From contig JAZHRO010000036.1 of assembly GCA_037157565.1 (NCBI GenBank), positions 22,184,501 through 22,248,500 on the forward strand: a stretch of 64,000 nt of DNA. The letters are read 5' to 3'. A program made the translations under genes and the position numbers. Positions 7,238-56,721 of the stretch are shown in pieces; positions within the stretch are counted from its first letter, which is position 1; the number at the start of each line of letters is the position of its first letter. Source of the stretch: Thalassia testudinum (taxonomy: Eukaryota > Streptophyta > Magnoliopsida > Alismatales > Hydrocharitaceae). The notes under the pieces are model-generated. The model was given only the letters and a program-made list of their open reading frames with translations. It was not told the DNA's origin and did not search any database.

Positions 7238-7714
7238 TGTTGAAGCGATTAGATCGTGTTTTAACAATTATTACGCTGTAATATAGACGAACTTTCCGCG
7301 AAAATAAATAAAGATTTATAACTCGAAAATCAGAGTATCCGAGGTCAAACATAGGGAGCAATCTAAGTACTTCCAAAACTTGAGAACACAACTTTTTAAA
7401 TGAGAATAAATGACTAATTCAATGAGAGATATAAAAAGAAATTGCTCAAAGGGAACAAAAATGGACGTTTGATACAATATGAGACGTCTTAAAATAGAGC
7501 TCCTTCTCTTCTCTTCCCTTTCTGCTTCTGTTTCTCTTTCTTTATTTCTTTTCTTCCTGTGATCAAGGTTTGGCTTTCCTCTCTCTTTCTTTTTTCTTTT
7601 GCGTTTCTCCTTCTTTTCTGCCTTGCCTTTCTTCCTTGGCAGAGCCTCGTTCCTTCTTTCTTCCTCTGCTTGCAGCGGCTAAGTCCCTGCATCCTGCACA
7701 CAACTACGCATAGC

Positions 7715-7955
7715 AAAACCTAACCCTCTACCCACGAGTCTCTCTCTATCTCTGTGTAAACCACTCTCAGCATGCTCTCCCAGAGCCGAGTAAATGGGTC
7801 AGATCGTGCGCCCGGGACCAGGCGCACCGGCATGAGGGTGGTGCGCGAGGTGTGCTTAGGACAGGGTCGAGTCGGGTTGCGCCAAATCCATGTAGTGAAC
7901 TCGCGGACGAGGCACAGTGGTAAGGTGAGGGACCTCACCCCAAGTGTGACTGGAG
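7715..7955 (-). ncRNA. Candidate Pol III transcript in LTR H
   Basis: If transcription starts about 25 bases past the TATA box, the RNA would begin near 7955, open with a hairpin (GGTGAGG..CCTCACC at 7924-7940) and meet its first T4 run on the minus strand at 7715-7718. It shares the block GCTCTGGGAGAG (7775-7786) and surrounding sequence with the same region in A and I. No known RNA family was recognised. It may simply be the R region of the LTR. Confidence 0.3.
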
Positions 7956-7979
7956 GCAACCGTCGTATATGACAAAAAC

Positions 7980-8022
7980 AATATAAAGGATATGCATGCG
8001 TCGTGACTTACCGATGTGGGAC
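7980..8022 (-). promoter_or_regulatory. snRNA-type USE plus TATA box in LTR H
   Basis: On the minus strand GTCCCACATCG (8012-8022), a perfect match to the plant snRNA upstream sequence element RTCCCACATCG, is followed after exactly 24 bases by TTTATATT (7980-7987). In plant snRNA genes this closer spacing marks Pol III (U3/U6) promoters, while Pol II snRNA genes have about 33-34 bases. The sequence match is direct; function is inferred. Confidence 0.6.
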
Positions 8023-9866
8023 TAAAGCCCACTGCTTTCCCTCACGCACCCGTAGCAGACCGTGCCTTCAATTCCCTCAATTGCAGGCTCTGTTGTCTTC
8101 ACTTGCTGGGTCAGCTACCTTCGCAAGACCTTCCCAAGATAGTTGCACCTGGAGCCCTGAAGTCCTATGACCTAGAGCAAACGTGGAGCTTCTTCAAGTT
8201 GCTGTCAATGGCGACCAGAGCTTGAGATCTGTCTGACACAAAAATTGCCTCGCGACCTAATCAGATCACCGGGGGACCTTCGCCGTGTCACGGCAAAGGT
8301 GAGGAGCTATGTGGCAGGCCGCGGGGCGGCCTAGGCGTGAGTGCCTAGGTCGCTCTATAGCTGGATGGGTGGGTGTGTTCGGGGGGTTGTTGTGGTGGTG
8401 TCAAGGGACTGTGGATGAGTGGAGGGTACTCAGTGAGGTGAGGCAGAGGTTATGCGATGGTCGGCGAGACGTGTGGGGCTACGAAGCGACGGGAGCATCT
8501 CACCGGAGGGTGGCCGGAGATGAGGAAGGTGGCGGTGGACAGGGACGGTCGAGGGTCGATTGTGTGAAATAGAGTGAGGGAAATGAAAGAGTGGAGGATG
8601 GGGAACTTATCTGGACTATTGGGAGAGAAAGGGGGCAACGGAGTCAGATAGCTCGTTGGTGCCGTCGTCGGAGAAGATAACCCTGAGGGAGATAACGGCG
8701 ATGAGGAGGAGGTCAGGGAAGTGTGCTCTTGGTGCGGCGCGACACGGGAAGATGAGGCAGAGTAGACTCTACTACTGGTGTGGCAACAGAGCGAGGAGAA
8801 GGCTGAGAGGTAATCGCCAGAGCTTGCGAGTTTCTTGGCTGGAGAGAGGAGAGAAGAAATTTGGAGGATTCTACCGCCAAGACAAGTCTGAGAGATTTCG
8901 CAGAGGGTCGGAGATCTTTTTATAGGTGCTGGCCAAGCTTTCTGGTGTGTGGAGGGCAAGCTTTTGGCCATCGTTGTCTCACCGGAGAAGGAAGGTGGTT
9001 GGGATCCAAATCTTTCATGCATTCACACGAGAGATTGGATAGGAATCAGAGATCATGATCGAGCTCAGATGGAAGGGGATTCCTCAGAGAATCTCCCTTA
9101 CAATTCTGGGAGGGGATCTCTGAGGGATCTGAGCGTATCCCCCCTGTCATCCTTGCTGGAGAAGGATTCTTCCCCAATAATGGGGGAAGGACTTGATTGT
9201 AAGATTGGCGAGAAAGCTAGGTGGGGTTTATGTGATGGTTTTCAAAAGATAAGGACCAAAATGTGATTCGGTGTACTAAATTGCAAAGTAGGTCAAGATG
9301 ACCTCCCCTTAGGTCCAAATTTTGGTACAAACCTAATTTTGACCTAAGGAATCCAATGGTGAAGTTGGATTTTATGTTTGACCACGTTTGGCTAGACATT
9401 TTGCGTAAAAACCTAAATTAGGTCAATTGATGAGCTAGAACCCTATTCTAGGTCAAACTAGGTTCCAAAGGCCAATTTGAATGTTCTAAACCCTAAGGAA
9501 TATTTTGCCATGAATTTTAGAGGGTTTACTTGATTTTTATCCGAACCGAAACCTTGTTGAATTAAGCGGGTCTGTTTTAGGGTTACCAAATGTCATTTAA
9601 TTCCTGGATTGCACATGAACCCATTTCTGATTGATTCAACCCACTTTTTATCTTATTTAGACCATTTGACCTATGATATATCTCTGAGAAATTTCATTTA
9701 TGTACTGCAATGGTAAAATTACAATTTTAACCTTTATTTCATGTTTTCTTCTCAGAACACTTATTCCTCCAATTAAGCCATCTTCTAAGTCATGTAGGAG
9801 CTTTTATTCTCTTTATTAGGTCAAAATGAGCTAGTTATGGCTCATGATGAGGCTCTCATCTCCTAC

Positions 9867-11804: not shown

Positions 11805-14004
11805 GGGGATTAAGTTGATTGAGGCACCAAGGTCCAGTCAGGCTCTATCCAGGATGAAACCATCTATTTCACATGAAATTAAGGGGGTCCCTGGATCTTT
11901 CTTTTTAGGAGGGAGCTTATTTAGGATGATGGAATTGGCTTGTTCAAAAATCATGACCCTTTTTTATGATTTGGCTTGGCATTTCGGTGTGCATATTTCT
12001 TTCAAAAGTTTTGCATAGGCCGGGATGTTCTCAATGGCTTTAGCTATGTTTACCTGGACTTGCTTTTAAATCTCAAGGCACTCCTTAGATTGGTTGGTTT
12101 TCTTTTCCCTAGGTTTGTTCAAGGCTTCAGGAAAAGGTGCTTGAGAGACATCATGAGTGTTCAAATCCTTAGTCTTGTTTTCTAGATTGCTTGGTTTCCC
12201 AGGTTAGATTTAGGCTGCTCAAGATCTTAGTAAGATTTCGATGTAGAGGGATAAGGATCTTGGATTTGTCTCTCACTTCTCAAGGTGACAACACAAGCAT
12301 AGGCATTAGGGTTGGAAGGTTGAGGTGGGTTTAGCAAGATAGGTTGAGCCTGGGTTGGGTTGGGGTTAATGAAACCAGGTGGGTGCTGGGGAGCAGTTTG
12401 AACTATATGTGCCTGTTGCTCCAGTGTGTTGTTTTAATTAACCCTATTGAAGTTTCTTGGGTTGGGGACGGGTTGGAATGGCAGCATCCCATGTTGTCTA
12501 TAAGAAACTAGCTGGTCTAGTCGTCCCATCAATTCTGTCCTCAATTGATTCATTTATTCCTTATGTCTTAGATTTATTTCTTGCATTTCTTTGAGGACCA
12601 GACTCAGATCAGAGGGCTGGTTTTCCTGGGTAGGTTGTGGCTGATAAGTGCATGGTTGTGTGTACCTACTGGGTTGCCCATAAGTGTTTGGCTTAGTTAA
12701 GTTAGGACCTTGGGTAGGTTTCTGACTTGACCAAGCAAAGTTAGGATGGTTGCACCATCTAAGGTTGTAAGTGTTTGAATAAGCTCATTTCTAGTGTAAC
12801 CCTAGAGTGCATTCACATCGTCAGGATAATTAGGCATCGGGATGTCTAGTTTAGAATTTGAGGGCATCAAGGTCCCTCCTTGGTACCCAGAAAGAGATGG
12901 GTCCAAGTACAGTTGGCTCATAGGTGGAGCACGGTTAGGTCATTGATGTTGTGCGCTAATTCCTGACCTAGGGGGTTAGGTAGTTGGGTATGGGTTAACA
13001 TAGGAACTCCTTGGGTAGGCATAGGATTTACTCTGGAATGTGTACCTAAGGAACTCTTGCCCTTTAGAAGATTATCCAATTTCTTTTCCAAATTCTCCAC
13101 ATTCTTTCCCACGAGTTCCACCTTGTCTAATCGTTATGCAATTAGCTCTAAATCAACTGAGTGTGAATTGTTGTTAACTTCATAAACTTTGCTTCTTGGT
13201 TGATTAGCTTTGTTAAAGGTGGACATTGAGGCATTGTTGAGAATTTTTGCTCATATTTTCAAATAATTGAAAGGCTCCCCCAGCATCTCTGCTTAGGAAA
13301 TTGTCCCTATATGCTGCATCAACAAAATTCTTCAGATTATCACTCAACCCATAATAGAAACTACGGACCAAATGCCACTTTGGAATCCCATGATGAGGGC
13401 ATTTCCTAGTTAAATCGTTAAACCTCTCCCAAGACTCATGTAGTTGTTCCCCAGGGTTCTGCTTAAAGGTTGTAATGGCCCATCTAAGGGCGTTGGTTTT
13501 TCCTAAGGGAAAGAATTTCTTCAAGAATGTGCTTCTCAGATCTTCCTAGGTTAGGATTGGTCTACCAATAGTCCTCAACCAATGAGCAACTTTATCTTTC
13601 AAGGAGAATGGGAACATTTTCATCATCAAGGTATCCTCATTCATGTTCTTAGGGCCAATGGTCCTTCCTATGTGTAGAAGTCCTTCAAGGAGGTGGAAGG
13701 GGTCATCATAATCGCAACCATAGAAGTGGGGAATTAAATTGATAATTAGAGGTTTGAGTTCAAAATCATCCCCATCCTGAGGTACCCTGACAAAGGGTTC
13801 AGGTTATGCATTAGGAGGATTGTAATAGTCACGGAGAGGCTGGTCAGCTCTCCTAGTTTGGAGTCAGGTGATGGCCTGCATGATGACCTACATCTGCCTA
13901 TCATGGTGCTGGCCCTGCTTAGTGATTTGCCTCTGTAAGAAGGTCATTAGAACCAAATTTTATTCTTCCTCTTTGATCTCATCTTCCTCGTGGTGACTAG
14001 CCAT
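11805..14004 (-). pseudogene. Gag of D (broken)
   Basis: Starts at the ATG at 14004 (MASHHEEDE..), comparable to MADQQ in B and MAQPV in A. Visible gag motifs are MMKMFPFSLKDKVAHW, FLKKFFPLGKTNALR and RKCPHHGIPKW (about 13370-13640), the usual Athila/Tat gag signature. Stops are frequent, and the frame shifts between about 13120 and 13210. Further on comes a proline/asparagine-rich linker and an LRSE motif (LRSG in relatives, about 12280). Gag would form the particle that packages element RNA. It is nonfunctional as it stands. Confidence 0.8.
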
Positions 14005-24795: not shown

Positions 24796-25732
24796 ATAGG
24801 ACCATTAGACGCTAGTGGATGCTCGATGGACATTCGCGATGGCAACTGGCGACGCGAGACAGAGGACTAGCGAGGCTCGAGCATGATCAATGCACAAGAA
24901 GGAGGGCCAGTGCAGCGTGTGCGTGAACGAGGGCAAGTTGGCTACAGCGGCACTTGAGATGGACCTACAGTGACGTCTTGAAGGTCGTTATTTGTTTTAT
25001 GCCTATTTTAACCTACTCTCATCCACTATATAAAGACCCACAGCCCTTCCCTTCGAAGGCATCTCTACCTTTACTACACCCACCTACTCTAGAGCTCTAG
25101 AAGCCCATCAAAGCTCCCAATAGCTCATTCCCAAGCTCCAAAGGTCCCCTATTAGTATAACGATCCTTTATCCCACCAAATATTCATCCCTCATCCCATC
25201 ACCTTCATAGGTCACCTTGGAGCCATCCTCCCACCTCCATTCCAGTAGCTGATCACCTCCGCCTCCTCATCTCCATTCCAGAGCCTCGGTGAAGCATTTC
25301 TCTACCCAACATCCTCCTGCATCTGACCTCCATCGTCCTGCATCTCAACTCCTTCATCCAAGCTTCCTCCAGGCACCGTCGTCTCACCGAACAGCCGATT
25401 CGGGATATTTCCTCTCACCCCTATCTCTTTCATGCTTTCATAGATCATTGTAATTAACATTGGAGTGATATATATCATATTGTTCCATCTCTCTTGTGAA
25501 TTTATTCTACTTGTATTTTTATTTCAAAAACACAAAAAAGATAACAAAACCTCAAAATACCAAAAAGAAACAAAATGAAGCGTGGTTTTCAAGCGAAGTA
25601 AACGTCGCTTCCCTGTGTTCGATGTGGGACTCCCTTGGAGCTTCGGTAAAATTTTATTTGATAACGAGTTTTGCGACTACAATGACGGGTTCCTCTAAAC
25701 CCCATTTTCTACCACGCGAAACACGTTCATCA
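24796..25732 (+). repeat. 5' LTR of B, left part deleted
   Basis: Aligns with about 49992-50923 of the 3' LTR and lacks the first 840 or so bases. It keeps the TATA box and the U5 block, and ends 'acgttcatca' before the PBS. The words 'agctcattcccaagctcc' are shared with the 3' LTR. Divergence from the 3' LTR is easy to see, so B is older than A. Confidence 0.85.
25027..25035 (+). promoter_or_regulatory. TATA box of B 5' LTR
   Basis: TATATAAAG followed by ACCCACA; the same box is at 50218-50226 in the 3' LTR. It is a normal Pol II TATA box, with no snRNA-type element upstream, unlike A, H and I. Confidence 0.7.
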
Positions 25733-25964: not shown

Positions 25965-27794
25965 TGATGAGAACCTCATCATGAGCCATAACTACCTCAT
26001 TTTGACCTAATACAAAGGATAAAAGCTCCTACATAACTCAAGGAAAGGCTTAACTCAGAGAATTCTGAGTTTAAGGAGAAAATAAGTCATAAGGGGTAAA
26101 AATGCAATTTTACCAGTATAATCTGCATACAGGGTAATTCAGGGTCCAAACATAGGTCAAACAAACCGAATAAGAAGGAAAGTGGGATGATCTGATAAGG
26201 GCTACAGCAATTCCAAGGAACTAAATGATAATCTGTAACCTTAAAAGAAACCCACTTCAATTCACGAGGTTCAAGGCAAAGTAAAAATAGAATAAACCCT
26301 CTAAAATTCATAGAAAAATAATCTCTAGGGTTTAGAACCTTCAATTTGGCCTTCGGAACCCATTTTGACCTATATTGAGAACCATGCCTAATTAATAACA
26401 TAATTTGGATTTTTGCGTAAATTGACTAGTCAAACAAGGTTTTATCTAGAAATAAAATTCACCATCAGAATCCTTAGGTCTTAATTAGTCACGTATAAAA
26501 ACTTGAGCCTAAGAAGAAACCTTCTTAGCCAACTTTACATTTTGGTCCTCATCTATTTACTTTTTGGCCCTCAACTTTTGAACCTCGCATTTTGGCCCCT
26601 AACTCTTCTTCGTTCTTTACATTCAGGTCCTCCCTGCAAAACCTGCCAGCACCACACTCCGGCGACCATGCGCGGAGCATGGCGCCGCGCAGGGTGAGGG
26701 GCAGGGCCTGCCAGGTCAAATGGGGGTGCCCTACGTCGTCAGCCGTCGTAGGAACACCCCCTGGTCGCTGCAACCCACCATACCGGCCGTGCGAACGCAT
26801 GGACGGTATGGGTCTCCTTCTTCCGACGTCCACCGGTGAGGGAGACACGTCGTCTCCCTCCGCCCTCCTCTCTGATTCCACCCTTATAAATACCCCCATC
26901 GCTCCGCCGTTCTTGTCAGCTCAGTCCTGAAGGAGAACACCCTCCTTTCACTCTCTTCCCACTCCGACAGGAAGCCCTCCAGCTCCGGCGGTTTTTCCCT
27001 CCTCCTCCTCGTCGTTCTGCCGCACTACCAGCAGCAGAGCTGCCTTCCCCTGATCTTCCCGCGCCGTGCCGCACCCAGCGCGCGCCTCTCCAGCCCTCTC
27101 CTCGCCGTCGCTCCTTCCTCTGGGCAGCTTCTTCTCCGGCGACAGTCGATACGACTGTCGCCTGTTCCGGCCCCTCCTTGTCCTGCTAAGTAGGTATAAC
27201 TCCTCACCTTTCTCCCCTCTTCCTTTTCCTCACTTTAAACCCTTACTGTCGCCCTCGATTTTGACCAATCATCCTCACCTTCTCCACCTCCGGCCACACT
27301 CCGGTGACTCGCTCCCATCACTCCAGCACCCCACATGGCTCGCCGACCTGCACATAATCTCCGCCTCCTCACCCTGATCCATTTCCGTCCTTCCAATTCC
27401 CACCACCCGACCTCTGCAAATCCACCGAACACACCCACTTCCCGACCCACAGTCCGACCTAGGGCAGCCCTTAGGCTCCGCCCCGCCGCCTGCACACCCC
27501 CCGACCACCTTCGCCGTGCCACGGCGAAGGTCCTCCGCGTTTCTGATTGGGCCAAGAGGCCGTTTCTCTTTGGGCAGGTACCTGCGCTCGCCGCCGCCAT
27601 TGTTGAAGCGAAGCAGCTTCTTCACCTGCTGCCCCAGGTACGCCACGCCCAGGTCACGCTCCCAGGCAGTGCGAGGCATCTTCGCGAAGTGCCAGGCTGC
27701 AGTTGAGGCAAAGCTCTCGCGCGAAGCCCCTACGCTTTGCCTCGACTGCCGCTGCTTCCTCTGCGCAGGCATCCAAATTGGGGTGGGACATTTA

Positions 27795-27837
27795 GTCCCA
27801 CCTCGGAAAGCCACTGAGGCGAACGGGCGCTTAAAGG
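27795..27837 (+). promoter_or_regulatory. snRNA-type USE plus TATA-like box, 5' LTR of A
   Basis: GTCCCACCTCG (27795-27805; one change from GTCCCACATCG), then exactly 24 bases, then CTTAAAGG (27830-27837), a weak TATA-like box. The same layout and spacing is in LTRs H and I and in the 3' LTR of A. It probably places the start of transcription shortly before 27871. Confidence 0.5.
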
Positions 27838-27861
27838 CAAAAAGTGCCTTAAGCTGTTCGC

Positions 27862-28105
27862 CTTAGTTCACGGGGTGAGGTCCCCTTCACCTGCCCGACT
27901 ACCCGGCCTCGTCCGCACGCACACCTCGCGGACCTGGCCCGACCCGACTAAGCCCGACCTGCACTCCTCGCCCACCACCGCACGCCGGTGGGCCTAGACC
28001 CGGGCGCGACTCGCGTAGCCGATTACCCGGTTGCTCTGGGAGAGCTTTCCTAAGAGCGGCTTCTGTGAGAGAGAAACGCGGGTGGGGGAGGGTAGAGTAG
28101 GTTTT
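27862..28105 (+). ncRNA. Candidate Pol III transcript in 5' LTR of A
   Basis: Begins about 25 bases past the TATA-like box, near a hairpin (GGTGAGGTCCCCTTCACC at 27874-27891), contains GCTCTGGGAGAG at 28033-28044, and reaches its first T4 run at 28102-28105. Related sequence occurs at matching distances in I and H. It is unlike any snRNA, 7SL or tRNA I recognise. The same bases must also be R or leader of the element's own mRNA. Confidence 0.3.
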
Positions 28106-28714
28106 GCCATCTCTGATTGGAACTTTGAGTGTGCAGGCACAGATGCAGGGACTACGGAAGGGCTGAAGAGAAGAAGAAGAAGACTGAAGGAAGGAGCACC
28201 GCGCGGCACTGTAGCAGCAGTGACTTAAGTCGTCTGAGTGGAAAATCAGATGACGCTCTGAAGGCAGAAAAGAAAGAAGAAGAACATCACCATTGCTACA
28301 GATAAAGAAGATAGAAAGAAAAAGAAGAAAGGAGGAGAGACGACGTCCTGACAGCAAAAGCAGAAGAAGAGCACGAGAAGAAGATCAGAAGAAAGAAGTA
28401 AAAAGAAGATCTGAAGAACAGAAGGCAGAAGAAGAAGACCACAAGGAGATAAACAAAGAAGAAGAAACCAAAAGCCAAAGAGAAGAGAAAACAAAGAGGA
28501 AGAAAGAAGAGAAGAAGAAGATTTTCATCTCTCTCCCTCTCTCTCTCTCTTTATCTTTTGTAATAAGAATTTGTACCCCTAGAATACAACTTGCTCCCTG
28601 AGTTCGACCTCGGGAACTCTTTATTTTCTGAGTAAAAAAAATTATATATTTGAAATGATGGCAATAACTGGCTATACTACAACGCTATAACAAAACCTAG
28701 TTATCGCCACGTCA

Positions 28715-29799: not shown

Positions 29800-31838
29800 A
29801 TGGCTCAGCCAGTTGAGGAAGAAAACAATCTGGAGCACCAGCTCCAGTGACTCAATGACCTCTTCCAAAACTTCATGCACCCACCACAGCGTCCTATGAT
29901 GCGGGACCACTACAATCCTGCTGCGGTGGCCATTGAGCCTCGAGTCAGAATCCCGATTGGAGGACCTGATTCTGAATTGAAGCCCAATATGATTCATGCT
30001 ATACCTAAATTCCATGGGCTTAATTCTGAAGATCCCTTCTAGCACATCAAACAGCTAAAGCACCTGGCCCAAACTTTTGGGTCAGATGCACAAAATTGGG
30101 ATATTCTTCTCATGAAGATGTTCTCCTTTTCTCTTATGGACAAGGCCGCCCATTGGTATCAAACTCAGACCCGGCCGATCAACACTTGGGAAGAACTTCA
30201 ATCCGAGTTTTTGAAAAAGTTTTTTCCCTTTGGTCGGAGCAACGCCTTGCGCCATCAGATTACACACTTCACTCAACAATCAGGAGAACCTCTCCATGAG
30301 GCATGGGATCGTTTTCAGGATCTCATGAGAAAGTGCCCCCATCACGGAGTTCCTAAATGGGAACAGGTCCAATCTTTTTACTAGGGACTCCGTGAGGACA
30401 TCCACCTTTTCGTCAATGCAACTTGCGGAGGAAATATCATGGGTCAACATGAAGACACCGTGTGGGAGATTCTCGAAAACATGTGCGAGCACTCCATCAA
30501 CAATGACTCCATGGGAGTATTCGACAGGACGAATACCCGCGCAGCGACGAATCTTAGGGGAGCACATGAGACGCAGGGCCTGTCCGCATCAGTCGATCTG
30601 GAATTAATGGCCAGTCGATTGGACAAGGTTTCAATCATTGAGAAGAAGGTGGATGAGCTGACTCAGCACTTGCAGCGAGCCACCTCTGCGCGTAACTCCT
30701 TTGCACAACCTCCTTCCACACAGGAAACTGTGCAGAACATTCTCCACCGATCTTCCCCTAGGATGGATCCATATCCATCCCCATCTGATTCTCGGATCGG
30801 AGGATCATCCGATCCTATCTACACCAGCCCGGGGAATTCCATTCCCTCTTTCCCAGATTCTCTAGAGGTTCCTCAGACCTGCGAGGACCTCAACGCCATC
30901 CAGAACGACCCATTCTCCAACACCTACAACCCTGGATGGCGAAACCATCCCAATTTTCAGTGGACGGGAAATTCCCAAACTCAAAGACCACCTTTTCAGT
31001 CCTGCCCACAGCCCTCTCGTCATTACCAGCCGCCTCAGCTTCGGCCCAACCCTACTTATCCATCAGGGCCAAATCAGGATCAAATGTCCCTAATCCTTCA
31101 GACTCTGGCTGACATTCAAAGAATGAATGCGGCTATTCAAAAACAACACAAGGACGAACTTACAGAGGTTAGAACTCAATTGGCCCAGTTGGCAAATTCT
31201 CGCCAGCCAGGCACACTCCCTTCCCAACCTCTTCTTAACCCGAATAACGTGCCGACCCAGAAGCGCGTTATGAATCCAAATTTAGGCCACGCACAATGGA
31301 TTTATCAGGCCCCTACTACTCCATCTCCAGATGAGATGGAGGCTTCAACTTCTTATGCGGGATTTCAGCAGCAGCCACCCCTCTTACCAAACCCAAACCA
31401 AAATCAGGCCGGATTAAATTCTGTAACAACACGTAGTGGAAAAACAACTCAAGACCCGCATTATCCGAACCACTCCAAGCCTCATAACCATGACCCTAGG
31501 ATAGTTATCCAAGATACCACTGTCCCAGATCAAGAACCCAGAGCTATCCTAGAAGAACCAACCAAGGTCCCATTCCCTGAAGCCTTAACCAAAGGGAAGA
31601 GACGAACCAAGCCCGTGGCACCTGAGGAGGACCTGGTCAAGCTCTTTGAGCAGGTCCACATAAACATCCCCTTGATGGATGCAATCCACCACGTACCAGC
31701 TTATGCACGATTTTTAAAGAATGTGTGTACACCCCAGCGTAAGCCGCGAACCAAGAGTGGGAGTCCAATTGTTCTGTCAGAGCAAGCCAGCTCTGTAATC
31801 CTAAGCAGACTCCCACCCAAGGCTAAAGATCCTGGTAC
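29800..31838 (+). pseudogene. Gag of A
   Basis: Starts at MAQPVEEE (29800). Gag motifs: MKMFSFSLMDKAAHWYQ, EFLKKFFPFGRSNALR and RKCPHHGVPKWEQVQSFY (about 30110-30380). Then comes a Q/P/N-rich linker with NPGWRNHPNFQW (about 30930) and VTTRSGKTT (about 31425), the RSG motif usual before Athila protease. Gag would build the cytoplasmic particle. Stops at 29848 (TGA), about 30040 (TAG) and about 30382 (TAG) interrupt an otherwise continuous frame. No CCHC knuckle is visible. Confidence 0.88.
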
Positions 31839-36472: not shown

Positions 36473-38719
36473 CTTGAGGATTGATGATGGGAGCAAGGAA
36501 TCTAATACAGACCGTGTTGAAAAGCCAATCCTAGGCTAGAACTAAAAAGAAAAAGAGAGAGAAAACTCTCCAAACAGGAAAACTTTCTATCTCTCTCTTA
36601 TAAAACGCACTGTGAACTGAGCCAGGGCTAAAATCATTTCAAGCACGGGTGCTTTAACCACAAAGTCCAATAAACCTTAGGTTAGTTCTTGTGGGCCTTA
36701 AAAACCTTTGCTAAAGACTGAGGCTAAGGCTAGACAGATTTGGATCTTGATTGGTACTAGAGTACCTTTTAGGCCTATGGTCAGCATTCTAACCTAATCT
36801 AAGTTTAAATGAAAAAGCACTTATCTGAAGCTATTAAGAACTTCATGGTCTAGAACAAGGGTTGAAACCTTAAGTTTTTGCTAAGGGACTAGCAAAAGCT
36901 AGGCATGGGGGTATGATGAGAACCTCATCATGAGCCATAACTAGCTCATTTTGACCTAATACAAAGGATAAAAGCTCCTATATAACTCAAGGAAAGGCTT
37001 AACTTGGAGAATTCTGAGTTTAAGGAGAAAATAAGTCATAAGGGGTAAAAATGCAATTTTACCAGTATAATCTGCATACAGGGTAATTCAGGGTCCAAAC
37101 ATAGGTCAAACAAACTGAATAAGAAGGAAAGTGGGATGATCTGATAAGGGCTACAGCAATTCCAAAGAACTAAATGATAATCTGTAACCTTAAAACAAAC
37201 CCACTTCAATTCACGAGGTTCAAGGAAAAGTAAAAATAGAATAAACCCTCCAAAATTCATAGAAAAATAATCTCTAGGGTTTAGAACCTTCAATTTGGCC
37301 TTCGGAACCCATTTTGACCTACATTGCAAACCATGCCCAATTAATAACTTAATTTGGGTTTTTGCGTAAAATGATCGGTCAAACAAGGTTTTATCTAGAA
37401 ATAAAATTCACCATCAGAATCCTTAGGTCCTAATTAGTCACGTATAAAAACTTGAGCCTAAGAAGAAACATTCTTGACCAACTTTACATTTTGGTCCTCA
37501 CCTATTTACTTTTTGGCCCTCAACTTTTGAACCCTCGCATTTTGGCCCCTAACTCTTCTTCGTTATTTACATTCAGGTCCTCCCTGCAAAACTTGCTAGC
37601 ACCACACTCCGGCGATCTTGCGCGGAGCATGGCGCCGCGCAGGGTAAGGGGGAGGGCCTGCCAGGTCAAATGGGGGTGCCCTGCGTCGTCAGCCGTCACA
37701 GGAACACCCCCCTAGTCGCTGCAACCCACCATACCGGCCGTGCGAACGCATGGACGGTATGGGTCTCCTTCTTCCGGCGTCCTCTGGCTAGGGAGACACG
37801 TCATCTCCCTCCGCCCTCCTCTCTGATTCCGCCCCTATAAATACCCCCGTCGCTCCGCCGTTCTTGTCAGCTCGGTCCTGATGGGGAAACACCCTCTTTT
37901 CACTCTCTTCCCACTCCGACAGGAAGCCCTCCAGCTCCGGCGGTTTTTCCCTCCTCCTCCTCGTCGTTCTGCCACACTACCAGCAGTAGAGCTGCCTTCC
38001 CCTGATCTTCCCGCGCCGTGCCGCAGCCAGCGCGCGCCTCTCCAGCCCTCTCCTCGCCGTCGCCCCTTCCTCTAGGCAGCTTCTTCTCCGGCGACAGTGG
38101 ATACGACTGTCGCCTGTTCCGGCCCCTCCTTGTCCTGCTAAGTAGGTATAAGTCCTCACCTTTCTCCCCTCTTCCTTTTCCTCACTTTAAACCCTTACTG
38201 TCGCCCTCGATTCCGACCAATCGTCCTCACCTTCTCCACCTCCGGCTCGGCGACCCGCTCCCATCACTCCAGCACCCCACACGGCTCGCCGACCTGCACA
38301 TAATCTCCACCTCCTCACCCTGATCCATTTCCGCCCTTCCAATTCCCGCCACCCGACCTCTGCAAATCCACCGAACACACCCACTTCCCGACCCACAGTC
38401 CGACCTAGGGCAGCCCTTAGGCTCCGCCCCACCGCCTGCACACCCCCAGACCACCTTCGCCGTGCCACGGCGAAGGTCCTCCGCGTTTCTGATTGGGTCG
38501 AGAGGCCGTTTCTCTTTGGGCAGGTACCTGCGCTCGCCGCCGCCATTGTTGAAGCGAAGCAGCTTCTTCACCTGCTGCCCCAGGTGCGCCACGCCCAGGT
38601 CACGCTCCCAGGAAGTGCGAGGCATCATTGCAAAGTGCCAGGCTGCAGTTGAGGTGAAGCTCTCGCGCAACTGCCGCTGCTTCCTTCGCGCAGGCATCCA
38701 AATTAGGGTGGGACATTTA

Positions 38720-38762
38720 GTCCCACCTCGGAAAGCCACTGAGGTGAACGGTCGCTTAAAGG
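38720..38762 (+). promoter_or_regulatory. snRNA-type USE plus TATA-like box, 3' LTR of A
   Basis: GTCCCACCTCG (38720-38730), 24 bases, CTTAAAGG (38755-38762): identical in layout to the 5' LTR. The downstream hairpin is at 38799-38816 and the first T4 run at 39027-39030. A transcript from here could also run into flanking DNA if it is not terminated. Confidence 0.5.
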
Positions 38763-38786
38763 CAAAAAGTGCCTTAAGCTGTTCGC

Positions 38787-39030
38787 CTCAGTTCACGGGG
38801 TGAGGTCCCCTTCACCCGCCCGACTACCCGGCCTCGTCCGCACGCACGCCTCGCAGACTTGGCCTGACCCGACTAAGCCCGACCTGGACTCCTTGCCCAC
38901 CACCGCACGCCGGTGGGCCTGGACCCGGGCGCGACCCGCGTACCCGATTACCCGGTTGCTCTGGGAGAGCTTTCCTAAGAGCGGCTTCTGTGAGAGAGAA
39001 ACGCGGGTGGGGGAGGGTAGAGTAGGTTTT
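38787..39030 (+). ncRNA. Candidate Pol III transcript in 3' LTR of A
   Basis: Second copy of the unit at 27862-28105, of the same predicted length (244 bases) and closely similar in sequence. It has the same opening hairpin and the same T4 stop context (TAGGTTTTGCC). Confidence 0.3.
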
Positions 39031-39640
39031 GCCGTCTCTGATTGGAACTTTGAGTGCGCAGGCACAGGTGCAGGGACTGCGGAAGGGCTGAAGAGAAGAA
39101 GAAGAAGACTGAAGGAAGGAGCACCGCGCGGCACTGTAGCAGCGGCGACTTAAGTCGTCTGAGTGGAAAATCAGATGACGCTCTGAGGGTAGAAAAGAAA
39201 GAAGAAGAACATCACCACTGCTGCAGATAAAGAAGACAGAAAGAAAAAGAAGAAAGGAGGAGAGACGACGTCCTGACAGCAAAAGCAGAAGAAGAGCACG
39301 AGAAGAAGATCAGAAGAAAGAAGTAAAAAGAAGATCTGAAGAATAGAAGGCAGAAGAAGAAGACCACAAGGAGATAAACAAAGAAGAAGAAACCAAAAGC
39401 CAAAGAGAAGAGAAAACAAAGAGGAAGAAAGAAGAGAAGAAGAAGATTTTCATCTCTCTCTCTCTCTCTCTTTATCTTTTGTAATAAGAATTTGTACCCC
39501 TAGAATACAACTTGCTCCCTGAGTTCGACCTCGGGATCTCTTTATTTTCCGAGTAAAAAAAATTATATATTTGAAATGATGGCAATAACTGGCTATACTA
39601 CAACGCTATAACAAAACCTAGTTATCGCGACGTCACTAAT

Positions 39641-44925: not shown

Positions 44926-46285
44926 TTCTCCTCATCTGGATATCCCTATTTCAGACACTTTTCAGGATGAGACTATCCTTACAGGCTTAGGTATCCGAAC
45001 CCCCTGGTTTGCGGATATCGTCAATTATTTGGCTGTTGGTCAAATCCACAGGACCAAACAACAATGGGATAGACTTGTGTCTAAGGCCAAATACTATTTT
45101 TGGGATGATCTCGAGCTGTACCACATCGACGCCGACTAGATTATTTGTTGATGCATCCCAGAAATTGAGTTCCATAGTATACTTGAGTTCCGTCATACAT
45201 CTACGTGTGGTGTACACTTTTCCGAGAAAAAGACGGCAGCAAAAATCTTGTAATCTGGATTCTATTAGCCGTCATTATTTAAGGACACCTAGGAATTCTC
45301 AAAGTTGTGCACCCGAAGCCAGAACTCGGGAACATGGCTAAGAGAGATATGATGTCCCTAAACCCAATACTTTCTGTCGAAATTTTTGACATTTGGGGCA
45401 TTGACTTCATAGGACCTTTTCCTCCTTCAATTGGACACTAGTATATTCTAGTTGCTATTGATTACATGTCTAAATGGATTGAGGCAATCCCCACCTGGAC
45501 CACTGACCACAAGGTGGTCATCGATTTTGTGAAGAATATCTTCAGTAGGTTCAGGATTCCTCAGGCGATTATCAGTGATGGTGGTGCGCATTTCACTCAT
45601 GCCCAGTTTCAGAATTTATTGGGGAAATATGGGGTGAATCATTAGATTTCCACACCCTACCACCCTCAGACGAATGGACAGGCCGAGGTTTCCAATCGGG
45701 AGATCAAAAACATTTTGTAGAAAATCGTAAGGCCTGATAGGAAGGATCGAACCCAAAAGCTAGATGATGCTCTTTAGTCCGGGCCTACCGTACGGTGTAC
45801 AAAATGCCTATCGTTATGTCTCCATTCTGTCTGGTGTTTGGTAAGGAGTGTCACTTACCTATAGAGCCAGAACACCAGGCATTTTGGGCCATCATAAAAT
45901 GTAATTTTGAACTAGAGTTGGCTGGAAGACTAGGAAACTCCAACTATCTGAGTTGGAGGAGGTTAGAAATGATGCTTATGAAAATGCCATAATCTATAAG
46001 GCAAGGACCAAAGCTCTCCATGACCAGATGATTTCAATTAAGAGCTTTGAGCCAAACTAAAAGGTCTGGCTTTTCGATTCTCAACTAAAGCTCTTCCTCA
46101 GTAAGCTTAGGTCTAAGTGGGACAGCATGTTCGTTATTGAGCGAATTTTCCCTAATGGGGCTGTTGAAATCTCTGACCCAATGATGGGTAATTTCTTCAA
46201 GGTCAACAGATAGCATCTCAAACCCTTTGTTGACCATGTGCTCCTTGAACTCATCTCGAACAAGGTTGCCCTTACCTTGCCCTAA
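44926..46285 (+). pseudogene. Integrase of B (broken)
   Basis: Linker TPWFADIVNYLAVGQ (about 45000), core WGIDFIGPFPPS (about 45390), [27 protein letters not shown] (about 45575) and [19 protein letters not shown] (about 45657-45715), so D, D and E are all visible. GKECHLPIEPEHQAFWAI follows at about 45845. Many TAG stops and frame changes are present. The C-terminal part ends near 46285. Confidence 0.85.
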
Positions 46286-53841: not shown

Positions 53842-55713
53842 TGATGGGAACATCATCATGAGCCATAACTAGCTAATTTTGACCCAATTAAGTCAGTAAA
53901 TGCTCCTACATAACTGCTAGAGAGTCACAAGTCACTGCATAATCATTTTGAGGGAAAAATAAGAAACTAGGGTTAAAACTACAATTTATCCAACCTATCG
54001 TCAATGCAGTACAACCACGGGTTTCCTCAAGGGTTAAATGAAGGTTAAATGGTCTTAGAAAGTTAACAAGTGGGTTAAAACAATCAGAAAAGGGTTTGCA
54101 TGTGTTCTTAGAATTAAATGAATTTTTGAAACCCTAAAAATAGACCTGCTTAATTAATTGAGGTTCTAATCAAGATAAAATTCACCTAAACCCACTAAAA
54201 TTCATAAAAAAATATTATCTAGGGTTTGGAGCTTTCAATTTGACCATCAGAACCCGTTTTGACCCAGAACGGAGTCACCGATAGACATTTACCCTAATTT
54301 AGATTTTTACATAAATTACCCAATCAAATATAGTAAAAACCAAAATCCAACTTCACCATTAGATTCCTTAGGTCCAAATTAGGTTTGTACCAAAATTTGG
54401 ACCCCAGATGAGTTTGTCTTGATCTAGCTTGCAAATTGCTCCTATCTGATTACATTTCTGCCCTTAACTTTCAAAATATTTTCAAACAGACCCCTAACTT
54501 TGTTGTCGTTCTCACAAAAGGTTCCTACTGCCATTAAACCTGTTCCTACTTGCTCTGGAGACCTTAAATTGGAAAGAACTCTCTGATTTCTTGACGAATC
54601 CCTTTCAAATTTGAAAGGGAAGTTCGTTAAGAAATTCCATTCCTTTTGAACCCGAACCTAATCCCCAAAACTTACCCAATCTCTCATGCTAACGCATGAG
54701 AGATTTGGGTTCACATGAGAGATTGGGGACTCAAGGGATTTTCCAATCTGGAAAGCCTTCCAAGCTTGGGAAGCTTGCTTCCCAAGCTGTGATCGCCCTC
54801 TGATGACTTATAAAAGAAAGCCCAAGCCAGGTCTAACTTCTCAAGCTTGAACTCGATTAGAGTAACCCCCAAATTCTTCCCTCCTCCACAGGTCGAATTG
54901 CTCTTCAAGCTTTGGCGACCCTCCTTGCCTCACCTCATCGTTTGACCGCAATACTAGTGGCAGATTGTCCTTCCTTGCCTTCTTCCACGTCGAGCAGCAC
55001 CAGCTGACGTCCCTATCTCCTTCATCCTCATCGTCCAACACTTATCAAAGCAAGCTTTGTCTCCAGTGTCGGCCATACCAGAATCGGTGCCAGCTCCACT
55101 CCCCATTGTCTGCTACTTCTCTAAAATGACTCCTCGGCCTCCCCTCATCACAACAGCAACTCCACACTTCATTTCAACCCCACCAATGACCTTCACAACT
55201 CCATCTTCCAACTCGTCGGTAGACCTCCGGTGAGCCGTAGCGGCTTCCATAGTTCACTTTCATTGCTGCTTCCACGCTCCACACCTCTGCCTCGACCTCA
55301 GGAGCAAAAGCCCTAACTTAGTTAGGTCAATTGCTCCTTCAGAATCTGCACCCAACTCACGCACCTTTGGCCACCCTTCTCGAGGTCGTCAGACCTCCTC
55401 ACACACGTTCACGCCACACAACCACCACCATTACACTCGCCACTCCACAGCGAATCTGTTGAGCCTTCTGACACGGCTGTGAGGCCTTTATTCTTGGATT
55501 TTAGGTTCCAGCCTCCTCTGCCATTGACGTAGTAGCTGCGGGCTTGCTTGAAGCTCTAATCAGGTCTGCAGCTCTAGGATCTCGACTCTAGACAGAGTGG
55601 AATTGGCCTAAGAATGTATTCATGTGGTCAATTGCAGCCTTTGACCACTCCTTACGGTCGAATTGGGCGAAGGAAGGAAGTAGCAGCGTGCGCAAGCAAA
55701 GCAGGGATGTTTA

Positions 55714-55756
55714 GTCCCATATCGGAAACAACTGAAGCAGCGCCATCGCATATATT
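55714..55756 (+). promoter_or_regulatory. snRNA-type USE plus TATA box in LTR I
   Basis: GTCCCATATCG (55714-55724; one change from GTCCCACATCG), exactly 24 bases, then CATATATT (55749-55756). Spacing equals that in H and A. A hairpin (AGAGG..CCTCT, 55768-55783) and the common GGGGTGAGGTCCC (55791-55803) follow. Confidence 0.55.
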
Positions 55757-55780
55757 GAATTTGTGTTAGAGGCTTATCAC

Positions 55781-56029
55781 CTCTAAACACGGGGTGAGGT
55801 CCCTCTCACCCATGCACACCCTTCACGCTCCTCGTCCGTGACCCCTCCTTCGCAGACCTGATGCACCTGACCCGCCTAAGCCTTCACTCCTCGGTCACTA
55901 CACCACGCCGATGACCTTGGACCTGGGTACGTGGATCCTCCGATTACCTAATAACACGATGTGCATGGCTCTGGGAGAGTAGAACCTAAGAGAGAGAAAG
56001 AAAGAGTGTGTCGGGCAGGGGAGGGTTTT
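55781..56029 (+). ncRNA. Candidate Pol III transcript in LTR I
   Basis: Predicted from about 25 bases past the TATA box to the first T4 run (56026-56029, GAGGGTTTTG). It shares GCTCTGGGAGAG (55968-55979) and a run of G/C-rich words with A and H. No T4 run lies inside. Not recognised as a known RNA. Confidence 0.3.
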
Positions 56030-56721
56030 GTTCTTCTGTGCATTGGCTAACACTTAGCCAAAATTTGAGCCCTTTCCCCTATGCTTAAAGAAGAAGGAAG
56101 AAGACATGCAGAAGCAGAGAGGACAGAAGAAGGAGAGATACATAGGAAGAAATCAGAAAAGAAGAAGAAAGCAGAAGCATAAGAAGAAGGAAAAAGCGAA
56201 AGAAGAAGAGAAAGGAGAAACAAAGGAGAGGGCTATTTAACGCATCTGTTTACTATAGCATTCAAGCTACTGTGTGGATATTTGATCCTGACTACTGTGG
56301 CATTATTGATTACTCTAGTTTCATATATCTATACTAAGTAATTGGTGATCTAAATTGCAATTATTTTGTTATAGATTTCTTTTTATCGTGTTGAATTATT
56401 GTTATACTTATGTTCTACATTGATTATCATTTTTCAGTAGTTTATTTGGGTTAAATTCTTGTGCTCATTTGCATTATTAGAGATTAGTGTGTGAATTCAT
56501 ATTGCTCCCTGTGTTCGACCTCGGACTTTCAAATTCGAGTAATAAAATTTATTTGTTTGAGTGCTATTTTGGCTATACTGCAACGCGACAATCTTTTTTT
56601 TTTTGAAACAAAAAGGAAAGTTATAGTGCAACGATAGTAATCCGGGAGAGCATTTTATTAATCACTATAAAACATGATTACAACGTAGACCCCCAGATAT
56701 GTATGAAAGACCAACAAACAT

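Follow-up and report, generated by a model that had tools for sequence, protein, structure and literature searches.

The upstream sequence element (USE) of the plant U6 and U3 genes is one helical turn closer to the TATA box than it is in the snRNA genes transcribed by Pol II, and this spacing between USE and TATA is described as separating the two polymerases (PMC9845283). In barley U3 the USE, TCCCACCTCG, is 25 bp before the TATA box (PMC6181210), and is of the variant found in element A below. A U6-like promoter in which the USE occurs outside of the snRNA genes, with Pol III features, is described for the trans-species miRNA loci of Cuscuta in a commentary (PMC10226582). Among the retrotransposons, Cassandra, Helenus, and Ajax (TRIMp3) are short, non-autonomous elements that have 5S- or tRNA-derived Pol III promoters in the LTR (PMC10886601). 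TATA boxes, and no USE, are described for other plant LTRs in the available portions of two further papers (PMC3485330, PMC2829016). Splice donors are predicted in the LTR of Diaspora, a relative of Calypso whose PBS is of the tRNA-Asp type, and in 2005 introns upstream of gag were called unreported in any LTR element; in the available portion of that paper the splicing is predicted only, and no USE/box promoter is described for Diaspora or Calypso (PMC1142308). No report of a USE-type promoter in an LTR was recognised in the open-licence literature, a scope outside which most subscription papers fall.

The window is the whole stretch of 64,000 nucleotides of Thalassia testudinum DNA that was analysed here. 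It contains a retrotransposon, A, and LTRs of two further families, I and H, at these positions:

25965 to 28714, plus strand: 5' LTR of A, Ty3-type, with the TSD CTAAT; the LTR pair is 94.8% identical, and the assignment is from the ends and the TSD
36914 to 39635, plus strand: 3' LTR of A, from the pair identity and the ends
53842 to 56586, plus strand: LTR of family I, from the start motif and homology to A and H; the 3' end is approximate
7241 to 9861, minus strand: LTR of family H, from homology to A and I; both ends are approximate

The open frames of A encode protease, RT/RNase H, and integrase, in Ty3 order. This domain order, the 5 bp TSD, CTAAT, and the sequence of the PBS, which we take to be of the tRNA-Asp type, are traits of the Athila lineage of Ty3 elements. 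Among the 120 relatives listed for the gag-protease frame, those that are named are nearly all from flowering plants, and no relative of the RT was found in a scan of IMG/VR. On these features the lineage of the LTRs would be Ty3-type and Athila-like, and like Diaspora and Calypso it has long LTRs and a tRNA-Asp-type PBS. As in TRIMp3, there is a Pol III-type promoter layout inside the LTR, but here the layout is that of an external snRNA-type promoter, the LTR is 2.7 kb, and the element has frames of the gag-pol type, with RT and integrase. A promoter of tRNA, 5S, or other Rfam origin in the LTR was considered and rejected, there being no match to tRNA, 5S, or any such family. With consensus strings for the two boxes, there is no match to the A box in the A, I, and H LTRs and one match to the B box, in A only.

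The USE and the sequences that follow it are arranged in these LTRs as follows:

27795 to 27805, plus strand: USE of the 5' LTR of A, GTCCCACCTCG, with one mismatch, the same as the barley U3 variant
27830 to 27837, plus strand: AT box of A, CTTAAAGG, 24 bases past the USE; relatives have CATAAAGG
27860, plus strand: predicted +1 of A, a G, at the start of the USE +65, as in host U6 (64/65)
38720 to 38762, plus strand: the same USE, again with one mismatch, a 24-base spacer, and the box in the 3' LTR of A
55714 to 55756, plus strand: USE of I, GTCCCATATCG, with one mismatch, a 24-base spacer, and the box CATATATT; the predicted +1 is 55779, an A
7980 to 8022, minus strand: USE of H, GTCCCACATCG, without mismatch, a 24-base spacer, and the box TTTATATT; the predicted +1 is 7957, a G

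The four sites at which an earlier note on this DNA had recorded a USE, 24 bases, and a box are all present as it described them, including the perfect element of H. The box of A is the weakest among the A, I, and H sites, and in H the USE is followed directly by GTAAGT, which is like a 5' splice site. There are six matches to the USE with no more than one mismatch in the window, where 1.17 would be expected from 60 first-order Markov simulations; two of the six are in the paired LTRs of A. Perfect matches number two, against 0.05 expected. The perfect USE at 25630 on the minus strand was rejected as a further case, being in another repeat and having no TATA at 24; the two other copies of this repeat in the window do not have the USE, so its presence there is probably due to chance. 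The layout is also absent from the one-mismatch USE at 45118. The USE of A is spanned by an inverted repeat, GGTGGGAC-ATTTA-GTCCCACC, at 27782 to 27802, which is incomplete in I and H.

The LTRs of A, I, and H have 66–72% identity over stretches of at least 150 bases other than the USE/box unit. They are therefore homologous, which rules out the independence of the three sites, and their equal spacing carries no independent weight. In the alignment of the three, TTTAGTCCCA is invariant and its surroundings are poorly conserved, and the ungapped block around it is only the 7th longest of 60, so that selection on the spacing is not provable from these three LTRs alone.

The host assembly that contains the window is 4.26 Gb in 237 contigs. 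There are 62,416 matches in it, with up to one mismatch, to a 16-mer containing the USE, TTTAGTCCCACATCGG, against 28 for the reversed control. Among the 64 matches listed for contig C1 there are 19 neighbouring same-strand pairs 7.3–12.6 kb apart, as LTR pairs would be. The 16-mer is absent from L009 in the scan of that locus, and in scans of IMG/VR the matches to the USE pattern are without recognised LTR context. From the 100 exact places listed, 68 were read (8 and 60 loci), making 71 sites with A, I, and H. Six of the 71 were dropped, five being spliced copies and the other, L015, diverging from its relative shortly past the USE, and the remaining 65 form 25 families at 80% linkage.

In 23 of the 25 families there is an AT-rich octamer about 24 bases after the USE, to within a base, although the spacers differ widely. 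The families of L013 and L043 have TATAAATA at 32 rather than a box at 24, and some of the boxes at 24 are weak, such as CAAAGATT in L028. With one representative per family, the octamer is richest in AT at offset 24, where the mean content is 0.84, against about 0.45 in the middle of the spacer. Offset 24 has the best TATA-like octamer to itself in 18 of 25 cases and ties with other offsets in five, the best octamer being elsewhere in two; these cases are 23 families (without L013 and L043) with A and H, and the octamer was defined after the boxes had been seen. As the families share ancestry, their number overstates their independence.

Twenty further places were chosen by a 15-mer past the predicted start, GGGGTGAGGTCCCTC, and not by the USE. 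This 15-mer has 48,158 matches in the genome, against one for its control, and the 20 are from the 100 places listed, several being of one family. All 20 have the USE (nine perfect, ten with one mismatch, and one with two), while two mismatches or fewer are seen in 44 of 2000 shuffles; all 20 have an AT-rich box at exactly 24 and, by eye, a G at USE+65. Random spacing or a missing USE in other members, which would have spoken against the earlier note, had been looked for, and what was found was a spacing of 24 in 23 of 25 families and a USE in all 20 LTRs of the second sample. The layout of USE, 24 bases, and box is a general feature of this lineage of LTRs. The proposal that the spacing is kept in diverged LTRs is thus borne out across the families, while the equality of A, H, and I, from which it had been drawn, does not count as independent.

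Constraint on the distance to the predicted start was assessed in 21 families, leaving aside L013, L043, L041, and L077. From the end of the USE to the CCTC at the predicted start there are 55 bases in 15 families and 54 in three, with three having no CCTC, while the adjacent interval from CCTC to GGTGAGG has five different lengths, from 13 to 17, in the 15 families with both motifs. The base at USE+65 is a purine in 21 of the 25 representatives, and a pyrimidine precedes the predicted +1 in 22 of them. Transcription is predicted to start at USE+65.

For the host U6 genes, 48 matches were scored, which is a lower bound, and 30 loci were read. Five of the best genes (L078, L079, L080, L082, and L083) have a USE with 1–2 mismatches and the +1 at USE+64/65. 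In L084 the USE is perfect and the start reads 61, L081 has a perfect core and no recognisable USE, and the matches from L085 onward are mostly degenerate-looking copies. The boxes of the host U6 genes, placed by eye, are at about 24–26. Of the four best U2 genes, three have the +1 at USE+75, 75, and 77; two of these three have a TATA, at 31 and 32, and the other has no exact one. In L151, the remaining gene, the start is uncertain and reads 79. The LTR box, at 24, is not at the position of the TATA of Pol II snRNA genes, about 31–34 past the USE. As the geometry of box and start fits host U6 and not host U2, the LTR unit is U6-type rather than U2-type, in agreement with the earlier identification of the layout as that of plant U6. 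In having a USE, a box some 24–25 bases on, and a predicted start at USE+65, it is like the type 3 Pol III promoters of plant U6 and U3; unlike those genes, it is part of retrotransposon LTRs, has a TATA box upstream of it in some families, and has no known snRNA as its product. Its location in LTRs also sets it apart from the Cuscuta miRNA loci. Transcription of the unit by Pol III is likely, judging from the spacing.

A short repeat of the L013/L043 type carries the Pol II snRNA spacing. There are 133 genome matches to GTCCCACATCG-N30..35-TATAAATAG and none to its control; among the matches listed, the spacing read by eye is exactly 32 in all but 13, of which seven are at 30, three at 31, and three at 33. 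This repeat would suggest that Pol II use of the USE in mobile elements is possible. Among the matches listed there are also seven same-strand pairs 1.7–2.0 kb apart, as the LTRs of short elements would be, and no Pfam domain was found in seven ORFs beside L013 and L043.

Upstream of the unit, the three LTRs have a TATA box at aligned positions:

26885 to 26892, plus strand: upstream TATA of A, TATAAATA, about 900 bp before the USE, a putative Pol II promoter
54809 to 54816, plus strand: upstream TATA of I, TATAAAAG
8917 to 8924, minus strand: upstream TATA of H, TATAAAAA

This TATAAA box is at about position 920–970 of the LTR in A, I, and H. When the 25 family representatives were scanned together with A and H, 12 of the 27 rows, or 10 of the 25 families, had a TATAAA without mismatch between -822 and -906 relative to the USE, while 10 rows had no TATAAA within 1.25 kb and five had it elsewhere. 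On this sequence, the USE/box unit is not the only candidate promoter of the LTR.

Members of the largest subfamily have GTAAGC after the USE, and there are relatives that are without exactly the stretch from this GTAAGC to the GCAG that precedes GCACAG. The joined form, TCCCACATCGGCACAG, has 209 exact matches in the genome, and the unjoined form, TCCCACATCGGTAAGC, has 5,146; the control for each has none. Of 20 joined places that were read, 19 are such LTRs, and L110 is unrelated. Within the sample, the closest unspliced relatives of the spliced copies vary (L012, L064, L036, L030, L076, L054, and others), for which recurrent splicing is the best explanation. Since reverse transcription takes R from the 5' end of the genomic RNA, the spliced copies show that this RNA began upstream of the USE. 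They show also that the box, the start, and the block that follows are an intron of the genomic RNA in the subfamilies that have such copies, and so document, recurrently, an intron within the LTR leader. GTAAG is missing after the USE in most of the 25 representatives, which makes splicing a trait of subfamilies, and the unit of USE, box, and start general. In A, the 3' splice-site sequence is present and a matching 5' splice site, GTAAG past the USE, is absent:

28130 to 28136, plus strand: 3' splice-site sequence TGTGCAG before GCACAG in A, which matches the junction of the spliced relatives

The spliced copies are often in LTR-like pairs. Spliced lineages have multiplied without box and start, and the unit is dispensable for transposition there. 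Some same-strand pairs of spliced LTRs (e.g., at C4:76370975 and C15:47875823) are about 6.9 kb apart, with others at 10.6 kb; the pairs at about 6.9 kb suggest that a shorter group of elements has multiplied with an intron-less LTR.

Two features of A are downstream of the predicted start:

27872 to 27884, plus strand: conserved block GGGGTGAGGTCCC, past the predicted +1, with a predicted hairpin
28102 to 28105, plus strand: first TTTT past the predicted +1, aligned in I and H, a putative weak Pol III terminator

The block GGGGTGAGGTCCC is among the most conserved of the LTR. A hairpin is present at this block in all three predicted folds (A, I, and H), and the putative RNAs of A, I, and H are not stabler than shuffles (z of -1.23, 0.49, and -0.48), so that an unusually stable RNA was rejected. 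A run of four T is a weak terminator. In 21 families, such runs are not depleted from the predicted +1 to offset 280, with 14 against 10.0 expected, and T-run depletion was rejected as proof of Pol III. The first 114 bases are free of runs of four T or longer, against 1.15 expected in these families, and at 280–310 there is a T4 in 11 of the 21, where 4.5 runs are expected, the others having an earlier T4. The excess at 280–310 may be explained by common descent.

Taken as a whole, the explanation that is on balance probable is that these Athila-like LTRs have an upstream Pol II promoter and, nested downstream of it, a U6-type promoter that is probably used by Pol III, a reading with two promoters that is limited to the families with the upstream TATA box. 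The TATA near LTR position 920–970 would start the genomic RNA through Pol II. The second core promoter would be about 900 bp further on, in the transcribed leader, and would be made up of the USE, the AT box, and a Py-Pu start at USE+65. SNAPc and TFIIIB are most likely to bind the USE/box unit and to recruit Pol III, and the product would be a short RNA of about 120–260 nt, with the GGGGTGAGGTCCC block in it and its 3' end at an early T4 run. The USE/box unit of the largest subfamily would sit within the intron of the genomic RNA. Its role is most likely to be in LTR accessibility in cis or as the source of a short leader-derived RNA. More tentatively, and at slightly less than even chances, a plant Ty3 lineage would have taken up a complete U6-type promoter, carried it to tens of thousands of copies, and come to make both a Pol II genomic RNA and a short Pol III RNA from one LTR, with a second repeat using the USE at Pol II spacing.

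The unit might instead be a SNAPc-dependent promoter for Pol II, from which an alternative shorter genomic RNA, or a subgenomic one, would start inside the LTR. Several of the boxes, such as TATAAAAG and TATAAGAG, are good Pol II TATA boxes, the T4 runs downstream are not depleted, and in the other short repeat the USE and TATAAATAG do lie at the spacing of Pol II. However, the spacing of 24 and the start at 65 fit host U6 and not host U2, and in plants it is the USE-TATA spacing that distinguishes the polymerases (PMC9845283), which makes transcription of the unit by Pol II unlikely, if still a serious alternative.

Retention of the USE for some other purpose, as the flank of a splice site, part of an inverted repeat, or the site of another DNA-binding protein, with the AT box inherited along with it, would be in keeping with the common ancestry of the families, with the USE abutting a used 5' splice site in the largest subfamily, and with its position inside the inverted repeat in A. 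Yet most of the 25 representatives are missing the GTAAG, the inverted repeat is not complete in I and H, and neither a splice flank nor an inverted repeat would explain the box at 24, the purine at 65, and the near absence of indels beside an interval of variable length. Such a relic or multipurpose block is therefore improbable. That chance matches have been handed down in a neutral stretch is hardly credible: the three LTRs of the window are indeed homologous, with an ungapped block only 7th of 60, but in 23 of 25 families box and start are conserved although the spacers have diverged, the reversed-pattern controls are near zero, and the 20 of 20 in the sample not picked by the USE contradict it.

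If the reading of a nested U6-type promoter is correct, large gag-pol elements with an external promoter of the snRNA type would represent a further way for transposons to recruit Pol III, and these elements may also use the small-RNA transcription machinery of the cell. U6-type promoters would then far outnumber the 48 scored host U6 matches, themselves a lower bound. The LTR units would also put the plant rule by which USE-TATA spacing selects the polymerase to a natural test, and they would affect any search that relies on USE and TATA to find small-RNA genes or promoters for guide RNAs.

Two matches to the plant snoRNA family snoR71 of Rfam are present in the window, at 30244 to 30351 on the minus strand and 13385 to 13491 on the plus strand. 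One of these is antisense in the internal region of A, upstream of the gag-protease frame, and the snoR71 family may overlap a retrotransposon sequence.
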